A DNA stretch of 64,000 bases. Source: Propionispora vibrioides. GTDB taxonomy: Bacteria > Bacillota > Negativicutes > Propionisporales > Propionisporaceae. Shown in pieces: positions 46,706-52,829 of the stretch. Position 1 is the first letter of the stretch; each line of letters opens with the position of its first letter. The DNA is taken from assembly GCF_900110485.1 (NCBI RefSeq), contig NZ_FODY01000015.1, forward strand, positions 1-64,000, read 5' to 3'. Position numbers and translations under genes: made by a program. The notes below the pieces were generated by a model. The model saw only the letters and a program-made list of their open reading frames with translations. It did no database searches and had not been told where the DNA came from.

Positions 46706-46793
46706 AAAAAAAACAACCGACAATTCCTACAACAGTAGAAGTCATCAGCTGATTTCAGCATTCCGGATTATTCCGCAGGGGAACTTCATCCCT
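46706..46793 (-). ncRNA. Second, divergent fluoride-type riboswitch with terminator
   Basis: On the minus strand from 46793: AGGGA/UCCCCU closes loop UGAAGU. An extra mini-hairpin CGGA/UCCG follows, then helix GCUGA/UCAGC and UGAUGACUUCUAC. Loop GAAGU is complementary to ACUUC, as required for the pseudoknot. GAC-UUCUAC (46735-46743) re-pairs with GUAGGAA-GUC ahead of eight T (46706-46713). The extra hairpin between P1 and the next helix departs from the consensus I know. It controls the MFS gene if functional. Confidence 0.68.
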
Positions 46794-47113: not shown

Positions 47114-47860
47114 TTAACCTTTGCTTGTCCAGCAATCACTGATATATCCTTGCGTATAATATTGATAAGGCAAATAACAGTACCCTTTATCTCCCCAGGA
47201 TGTGCCCCAGCTATTGCGGACGATAAACACTTTACTACTATCATCGTATCCCACAATAAGTACAGCATGACCACCCAGATATTGTTCTTTGCCCGGATTC
47301 GGCATAGGAACCAACCCAGTCTGAGCTACCTCATCACTTTCAAAGGAATCATATACCTTAATCCCTATCACTACCGGCAATTCTTCGGCAAGCGCTGCTT
47401 TTATCTGGGAGAATAAAATAATACGGTGATATTCATTGACTTTGTATATAGCGGCATCGGTTGTTTGTTTATCTGTCGGCGCATTCTTAAAGGTTGCTAT
47501 ATCATAAGGCCAGTCGGTCTCAGGACATACACCGATTTGGCTTAAAACTTTCATACCATCCCTGATTTCGGCACCTGAGTCCTCATTAACCTGGCCTTCT
47601 AACTCTCGTTCTTTATAATATAGGAACAACCTTGACAGTGTGATTAAAGACTGGGTACTTTTCAATTCCCAATATTCCCGCAAACCGGAAGCAATGGCAT
47701 TCGCCGTACAGGAGCCCAATTCTCCCTGATCAACAACAGGACTGCAATTAGACCGCAAATCAATTTTAGCAGGTAAATGCTCAATGAGTTTATATTTTGA
47801 TGAATAAAAAATATAATCCCGTAAATCCGGAGAATCTTTCTTTAATAAATACTTAGGCAT
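47114..47860 (-). CDS. Papain-like (C1-family) cysteine peptidase
   Basis: The 248-residue protein carries the full C1 set: oxyanion Gln and catalytic Cys in VDQGELGSCTANAIA, His in YLGGHAVLIVGYDD and Asn in VRNSWGTSWGDKGYCYLP. No signal peptide is present and only a short N-terminal extension (MPKYLLKKDSPDLRDYIFYS), so it may be cytoplasmic or exported by an unusual route. Substrates are unknown. It is monocistronic, within an accessory stretch that also holds a C39-like peptidase and a LamG/FnIII protein. Confidence 0.88.
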   Translation of the reverse strand: MPKYLLKKDSPDLRDYIFYSSKYKLIEHLPAKIDLRSNCSPVVDQGELGSCTANAIASGLREYWELKSTQSLITLSRLFLYYKERELEGQVNEDSGAEIRDGMKVLSQIGVCPETDWPYDIATFKNAPTDKQTTDAAIYKVNEYHRIILFSQIKAALAEELPVVIGIKVYDSFESDEVAQTGLVPMPNPGKEQYLGGHAVLIVGYDDSSKVFIVRNSWGTSWGDKGYCYLPYQYYTQGYISDCWTSKG

Positions 47861-50735: not shown

Positions 50736-52565
50736 TTATTCTACCGTTACGCTCTTGGCCAGATTTCTCGGTTTATCTACATCGCAGCCACGGGTAATGG
50801 CGGCATAGTAGGCGAGAAGCTGCAGCGGGATAACGGCCAGCAGCGGTGCCAGGTACTTGTGGGCATCCGGGATATAGATGGCATGATCCACATAATTTCT
50901 GATATGGTCGTCGCCTTTCATGGCAATCCCGATAACCACCGCATCGCGTGCCTTAACTTCCTTGATGTTACTGAGCATCTTTTCATACACATCCGGCTGT
51001 GTCGCCAGCGCAATGACCGGTACGCCTTCAATAATCAGCGCCAGGGTGCCGTGTTTCAGTTCACCGGCCGCATAAGCTTCAGCGTGAATGTATGATATTT
51101 CCTTAAGTTTCAGGGAACCTTCCAGCGCCACACAATAGTCCAGGGCGCGGCCAATAAAGAATACATCTTCGTTAAAGCCGTACTGCTGGGCAAAGGTTTT
51201 GATTGGTTCCACATCCTCGAGAATTTCATGGGCCTGTGCCGGCAGATCGCGCAAACCTTGAATCAGTTCCTTCACCTTTGCCGCCGCCAAGGTTTCGCGT
51301 AAAGCAGCAACATAAATGGACAGCATGCATAAGGTTACCAACTGGGTGGTATAGGCTTTCGTGGAGGCCACAGCGATTTCCGGACCGGCCCAGGTGTAGA
51401 TCACATGATCGGCTTCACGGGCAATAGAAGAACCGACAACGTTGGTAATAGCCAGTGTTCTGGCACCCAGCCGTTTAGCTTCTTTCAAGCCGGCCAGCGT
51501 ATCCAGCGTTTCGCCGGACTGACTGATGACAATAACCAGGGTTTTATCATCCACCAGTGGCGAACGGTAGCGAAACTCAGAGGCCACATCCACCTCGACC
51601 GGAATACGCGCCAGGTTTTCCAGATAATATTTACCGACAATGCCGGCATGATAGGCCGTACCGCAGGCAACAATAGCAATCTTGTTAATACCGGCCACTT
51701 CTTCCGGTGTCCATTTCAGCTCGTCAAAGATAATGTGGCTATCGTCTTTTGCCAGACGTCCCGACATGGTTTCGCGTACAGCTTTCGGCTGTTCATATAT
51801 TTCCTTGATCATGAAATGTTCGTAGCCGCCCTTTTCGGCTGCTTCGGCATCCCAGTTAACTTCAAATACTTTCTTGGTAATCGGTACGCCCTGACGGTTC
51901 ATGACCCAGACCGAATCCTTGGTCACAATGGCCATTTCACCATCGCTCAGGATATAGGTCTTGCGGGTACGGCTAATGATGGCCGGAATATCGGAGGCCA
52001 CAAAATTCTCCCCGTTGCCGAGACCAATAACCAGCGGATTATCCTGCTTGGTGCAGATAATTTTGTCCGGTTCATGTTCCGTCATGAATACCAGCGCATA
52101 GGAGCCTTCAATCTCGGTCAGAACTTTCCGTACGGCAGCTTCAAAATCGCCCTCATAGTACTCTTCTACCAGATGAGCCACGACTTCGGTGTCGGTTTCC
52201 GAGCTAAACACATGGCCTTTGGTGATCAGCTTCTCTTTGAGATGCAGGTAGTTCTCAATAATCCCGTTGTGAACCACCACGAATTTCCCCGAGCAATCGG
52301 TGTGGGGATGGGAATTTACATCGGAAGGACGCCCATGTGTCGCCCAACGGGTATGCCCAATGCCGATGCAACCGATAGGAGAATCACTTTCTACCTTCTT
52401 CTTGAGGACGCCTAACCGGCCAACACTTTTTTCCACATTGATTTCCTTACCGTCAAATACCGCAATGCCGGCCGAATCGTAACCGCGATACTCCAGTTTG
52501 GTCAGCCCTTCAATCAAAAAAGGTGCCGCCTGTTTAGGGCCTATATATCCAACAATACCACACAT
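50736..52565 (-). CDS. glmS: Glutamine-fructose-6-phosphate aminotransferase
   Basis: The 609-residue enzyme starts MCGIVGYIG, so the catalytic Cys becomes residue 1 after Met removal. The glutaminase half (HTRWATHGRPSDVNSHPHTD) is followed by two SIS domains (VDVASEFRYR, VISQSGETLDTLAGLKEAKR) and ends KPRNLAKSVTVE as usual. It makes glucosamine-6-phosphate from fructose-6-phosphate and glutamine, the first step towards UDP-GlcNAc. It is preceded by a glmS ribozyme in its leader and by glmM, the next enzyme of the pathway. Confidence 0.97.
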   Translation of the reverse strand: MCGIVGYIGPKQAAPFLIEGLTKLEYRGYDSAGIAVFDGKEINVEKSVGRLGVLKKKVESDSPIGCIGIGHTRWATHGRPSDVNSHPHTDCSGKFVVVHNGIIENYLHLKEKLITKGHVFSSETDTEVVAHLVEEYYEGDFEAAVRKVLTEIEGSYALVFMTEHEPDKIICTKQDNPLVIGLGNGENFVASDIPAIISRTRKTYILSDGEMAIVTKDSVWVMNRQGVPITKKVFEVNWDAEAAEKGGYEHFMIKEIYEQPKAVRETMSGRLAKDDSHIIFDELKWTPEEVAGINKIAIVACGTAYHAGIVGKYYLENLARIPVEVDVASEFRYRSPLVDDKTLVIVISQSGETLDTLAGLKEAKRLGARTLAITNVVGSSIAREADHVIYTWAGPEIAVASTKAYTTQLVTLCMLSIYVAALRETLAAAKVKELIQGLRDLPAQAHEILEDVEPIKTFAQQYGFNEDVFFIGRALDYCVALEGSLKLKEISYIHAEAYAAGELKHGTLALIIEGVPVIALATQPDVYEKMLSNIKEVKARDAVVIGIAMKGDDHIRNYVDHAIYIPDAHKYLAPLLAVIPLQLLAYYAAITRGCDVDKPRNLAKSVTVE

Positions 52566-52611: not shown

Positions 52612-52773
52612 CAGTTGTCCCTGCACGAATCTTTTTGTCCCACAAGTTGCCTTATGGTTTTGTAGATTACATAACGACCTGCAGTGGCCGAGAGGCATCC
52701 GCTGACAATATCGATAAACCTCTACCTCGTCTGCTTGCCTGATCATTCCGCATCTTCGGCAAGCACCAGCGCT
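52612..52773 (-). ncRNA. glmS ribozyme (glucosamine-6-phosphate-activated)
   Basis: On the minus strand the leader reads A|GCGC at the cleavage site (between 52773 and 52772). P1 follows (GGUGCUUGCC with GGCAAGC), then GACGAGG, GAGGUUUAUCGA, CAGCGGAUGCCUC and GUGGGACAAAAAGA, in the order of the glmS ribozyme core. It self-cleaves when GlcN6P binds, lowering glmS mRNA. It starts 363 bases after glmM and ends about 46 bases before glmS. Confidence 0.9.
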
Positions 52774-52829
52774 CTTGTTTAGTTTTAACCAAATGATTTT
52801 ACACTATCCATATCTCACCTCCCCTTATC

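Follow-up and report, generated by a model that had tools for sequence, protein, structure and literature searches.

The crcB motif RNAs are the fluoride riboswitches collected in Rfam family RF01734. Their reported partners are CrcB, CLC-type transporters and mutS (PMC7266159; PMC2864571), and in transcriptional fluoride riboswitches a terminator overlaps the crcB RNA (PMC2864571; PMC13273304). The 2011 R2R paper, which redraws the crcB motif of 2010, states in a legend that 31% of crcB RNAs have a hairpin (PMC3023696). As the wording of that legend does not give the position of the hairpin, its position was tested here on homologues.

The window, meaning the whole stretch of 64 000 nucleotides from Propionispora vibrioides that was analysed, includes an RF01734 aptamer on the minus strand at 46802-46729. 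It was detected using Rfam with a score of 35.9 bits (E 3e-6), which passes the curated cut-off of 34 bits only narrowly, and in the Rfam alignment the sequence between P1 and P3 contains an extra hairpin, P2, as an insertion. The original prediction of a fluoride riboswitch aptamer with an additional hairpin in the P1-P3 linker, which did not specify a strand, was borne out, as all of the elements it named were found. From 5' to 3', the aptamer consists of P1, a G, CGGA-AUAA-UCCG, GAAU, P3 and UGAUG-ACUUC-U. In P1 (AGGG[AUGAAGUUC]CCCU, 46793-46777), which is recovered in both the Rfam alignment and that of the subtype model described below, strands AGGG (46793-46790) and CCCU (46780-46777) enclose the loop AUGAAGUUC (46789-46781), and the 5' pseudoknot strand GAAGU (46787-46783) lies inside this loop. 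The P2 hairpin (46775-46764) is made up of CGGA (46775-46772) and UCCG (46767-46764) with an AUAA loop. The original prediction had placed this hairpin where an A-rich linker is usually found, but GAAU is still present 3' of the hairpin, in the place of AAACC in relatives. P3 (46759-46748) had been drawn as a five-pair helix, GCUGA/UCAGC. The helix itself is correct, but five pairs would leave a loop of only 2 nt, so P3 has four pairs, between GCUG (46759-46756) and CAGC (46751-46748), with an AAAU loop. The UGAUG segment (46747-46743) separates P3 from the 3' pseudoknot strand ACUUC (46742-46738). The GAAGU/ACUUC pseudoknot is complete, with five pairs, all of which are kept and invariant in 31 aligned hairpin-bearing relatives. 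In canonical copies the pseudoknot sequences differ and remain complementary.

When a covariance model derived from these 31 relatives, with the window sequence excluded, was used to search the window, it matched the same RNA at 46795-46734 with 52.4 bits (E 2.3e-15). The window copy therefore belongs to a subtype that has a P1-P3 hairpin with an A-rich strand on its 3' side, and it was the only one of the ten fluoride riboswitches in the window genome to be matched by this model. With the RF01734 form that includes an optional linker hairpin it shares P1, the pseudoknot, P3, the ligand-site bases, the hairpin between P1 and P3 and the overlap with a terminator. It differs from most members of the hairpin subtype in P1, which is usually GGGA/UCCC and here is AGGG/CCCU, and in its downstream gene, which encodes a major facilitator superfamily (MFS) transporter. 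Two further loci (L321 and L322) have the AGGG/CCCU form of P1, with an 8 nt loop and a linker hairpin, and also have the GCUGA...CAGC P3 in common with the window copy.

Linker hairpins in the same place but with differing sequences were found in copies from several families of the window's class. When genome contigs were scanned with a pattern for one P1/pseudoknot subtype, at least 118 loci were identified, mostly in Bacillota and with some Actinomycetota and Treponema records, though the pattern accepted only gaps of 20 nt or more and was thus biased towards copies with extra sequence. A hairpin is present at the position seen in the window copy in 78 of the 79 subtype loci that were dissected, and the sequences of its stem differ. 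In the alignment of 31 sequences, all four modelled P2 pairs change on both sides and 90.5% of cells are paired, and the signal of the complete structure is lost when the partners are slid. Among 398 sampled genomes of the phylum, RF01734 matches were found in 156 and matches to the subtype model (E ≤0.001) in 44, some of the weaker of which are probably copies without the hairpin. Forty copies were fetched, 39 because their RF01734 match spanned at least 68 nt and one from the subtype-model matches. Linker hairpins of at least three pairs, a few of them weak, were present in 24 of the 26 copies that were parsed by script. Together with the 31% of crcB RNAs given a hairpin in the legend cited above (PMC3023696), these homologues rule out the proposal that the window copy is a new structural variant, and the extra hairpin is an ordinary, already known module of fluoride riboswitches.

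An intrinsic terminator follows at 46751-46706 on the minus strand, with a stem (46751-46714) of -18.8 kcal/mol and then U8. Its fold has a z-score of -3.8, none of the shuffled sequences being equally stable, and it is conserved in the sister genome. In the stem, CAGC-UGAUGACUUCUAC can pair with GUAGGAAUUGUCGGUUG, such that the terminator takes up the 3' strands of both P3 and the pseudoknot, which resembles the known transcriptional fluoride riboswitches cited above. A putative promoter, TTGTGC-17-TATACT (46831-46803, minus strand), was recognized by eye directly upstream of the aptamer and is also conserved in the sister genome; a scan for consensus promoters did not report it, as it fell below the threshold. 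The window RNA is very probably an ordinary turn-on fluoride riboswitch of a long-known subtype in which a hairpin, P2, is optional between P1 and P3. With fluoride bound, P1, the pseudoknot and P3 would keep the 3' strand CAGC-UGAUG-ACUUC within the aptamer, allowing RNA polymerase to transcribe through to the MFS transporter gene. In the fluoride-free state, this strand would instead pair with the downstream segment, forming the terminator with its U8, and transcription would end. P2, which is variable in sequence and lies away from the ligand site, may be a peripheral spacer that probably aids the folding or stacking of P1 and P3. On the other side of the riboswitch, a gene for a papain-family (C1) cysteine peptidase (47114-47860) lies upstream, and a strong inverted repeat resembling a terminator occurs at 46961-46923.

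Viewed in isolation, the P2 hairpin could be a palindrome that arose in the linker by chance and has no structural meaning. A 4 bp Watson-Crick hairpin was obtained in 7.6% of shuffles of the 17 nt linker, and the folding z-score of P2 is only -1.4. Such statistics on the hairpin alone are weak evidence, and among the sequences compared it is the homologues that settle whether it is real. As records from throughout Bacillota, along with some from Actinomycetota and Treponema, have a hairpin with covarying pairs at the same site, we rule out a chance origin, which would be extremely improbable. A degenerate, non-functional remnant of an aptamer that still clears the Rfam cut-off is also very unlikely. 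The score barely above that cut-off would fit decay, as would the exact P1 stem and loop, which, when searched for in the 398 phylum genomes, were found only in the window genome. However, every helix pairs, the subtype-model score is high, and 73 of 74 aptamer positions, including the entire P2 hairpin, are the same in the sister genome. Across the terminator, 64 of 66 aligned positions (46755-46690) are identical, compared with an alignment of only 57% in the intergenic region upstream. Conservation of the aptamer and terminator against this background disfavours a decayed copy, though the sister copy is so similar to that in the window that it contributes no covariation.

The original prediction also allowed that the RNA may respond to another small anion, and a scaffold with an inserted hairpin might in principle have switched ligand to match an MFS exporter. 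The target gene is neither crcB nor a CLC gene, and the general Rfam model gives the RNA a low score. On the other hand, the hairpin is peripheral and is widespread in front of fluoride-resistance genes. The 85 scanned proteins that are encoded just downstream of hairpin-bearing copies are mostly of fluoride-resistance families, and include 67 that are Na/H exchanger-like, eight CrcB, two CLC, one pyrophosphatase and one with a MutS domain. Moreover, the window copy has all of the bases that hold the fluoride/Mg cluster and the two long-range A-U pairs (numbering of the T. petrophila structure), namely the AUG in the P1 loop, UGAUG and the U after the pseudoknot strand, and these are invariant in the 31 aligned relatives. 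The MFS relatives found near fluoride riboswitches in two other genera (G315 and G277) are accompanied by riboswitches that lack P2. A ligand-switched variant is thus a highly improbable explanation, and we give next to no credence to the idea that the ligand preference of the hairpin-bearing copy has moved to another small anion along with its unusual MFS target gene. Because fluoride-resistance families predominate downstream and the ligand-site bases are kept, the window copy is far more likely to bind fluoride than any other ligand.

The original prediction of a second, canonical copy nearby was confirmed. This riboswitch (45050-44982, minus strand), which is without P2, scored 51 bits with the Rfam model and 16 bits with the P2-subtype model. 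Like the hairpin-less riboswitches of the B. cereus and T. petrophila type, it shares P1, the pseudoknot, P3 and the conserved GAUGAC with the hairpin-bearing copy, but differs in that it has an 8 nt P1 loop and a 6 nt linker with no hairpin. It lies upstream of genes for a NifU-like and a GGGtGRT protein (Pfam; 44931-43222). To our knowledge, no function has been established for GGGtGRT proteins, and this arrangement is a hint that the GGGtGRT gene may be under fluoride control. Elsewhere in the window, a glmS ribozyme (52617-52784, 95 bits) is found directly upstream of a glmS-like gene (50736-52565) and is ordinary.

Eight of the ten fluoride riboswitches in the window genome are located within 15 kb of one another (L042, G000:C8:117000-136999; riboswitches at C8 121908-136509). 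The genes in this cluster include crcB, two DUF190-like genes and genes for a universal stress protein, an Na/H exchanger, enolase, a dynamin-like GTPase and an aquaporin-like channel, as well as a MutS-domain gene. The cluster is a large fluoride-stress island.

The gene downstream of the hairpin-bearing riboswitch (46599-45325, minus strand; Pfam MFS_1, E 4e-29) has an ATG start preceded by AGGAG. MFS genes are not classical fluoride genes. Close relatives of this one were found in 12 of 379 genomes of the class, including that of the window; they share 43-47% identity with it, or 95% in the case of the sister genome. Eight of the 12 had no fluoride riboswitch within approximately 7 kb or as far as the sequence examined extended, which rules out a constant link between this MFS family and fluoride. 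A fluoride riboswitch is nearby in the remaining four (the window and sister genomes, G315 and G277; loci L281 and L286). In G315 the MFS relative is behind the riboswitch with one or more open reading frames between them, and in G277 it follows a MutS-domain gene, approximately 3 kb behind the riboswitch. As only four of the 12 are in such a position, a role for the MFS gene in fluoride tolerance is plausible, but not established. The extra hairpin is a normal fluoride riboswitch module and does not define a new class. The gain from this locus is a modest one, namely a candidate fluoride-induced MFS transporter with relatives in two further genera that are also found near fluoride riboswitches.
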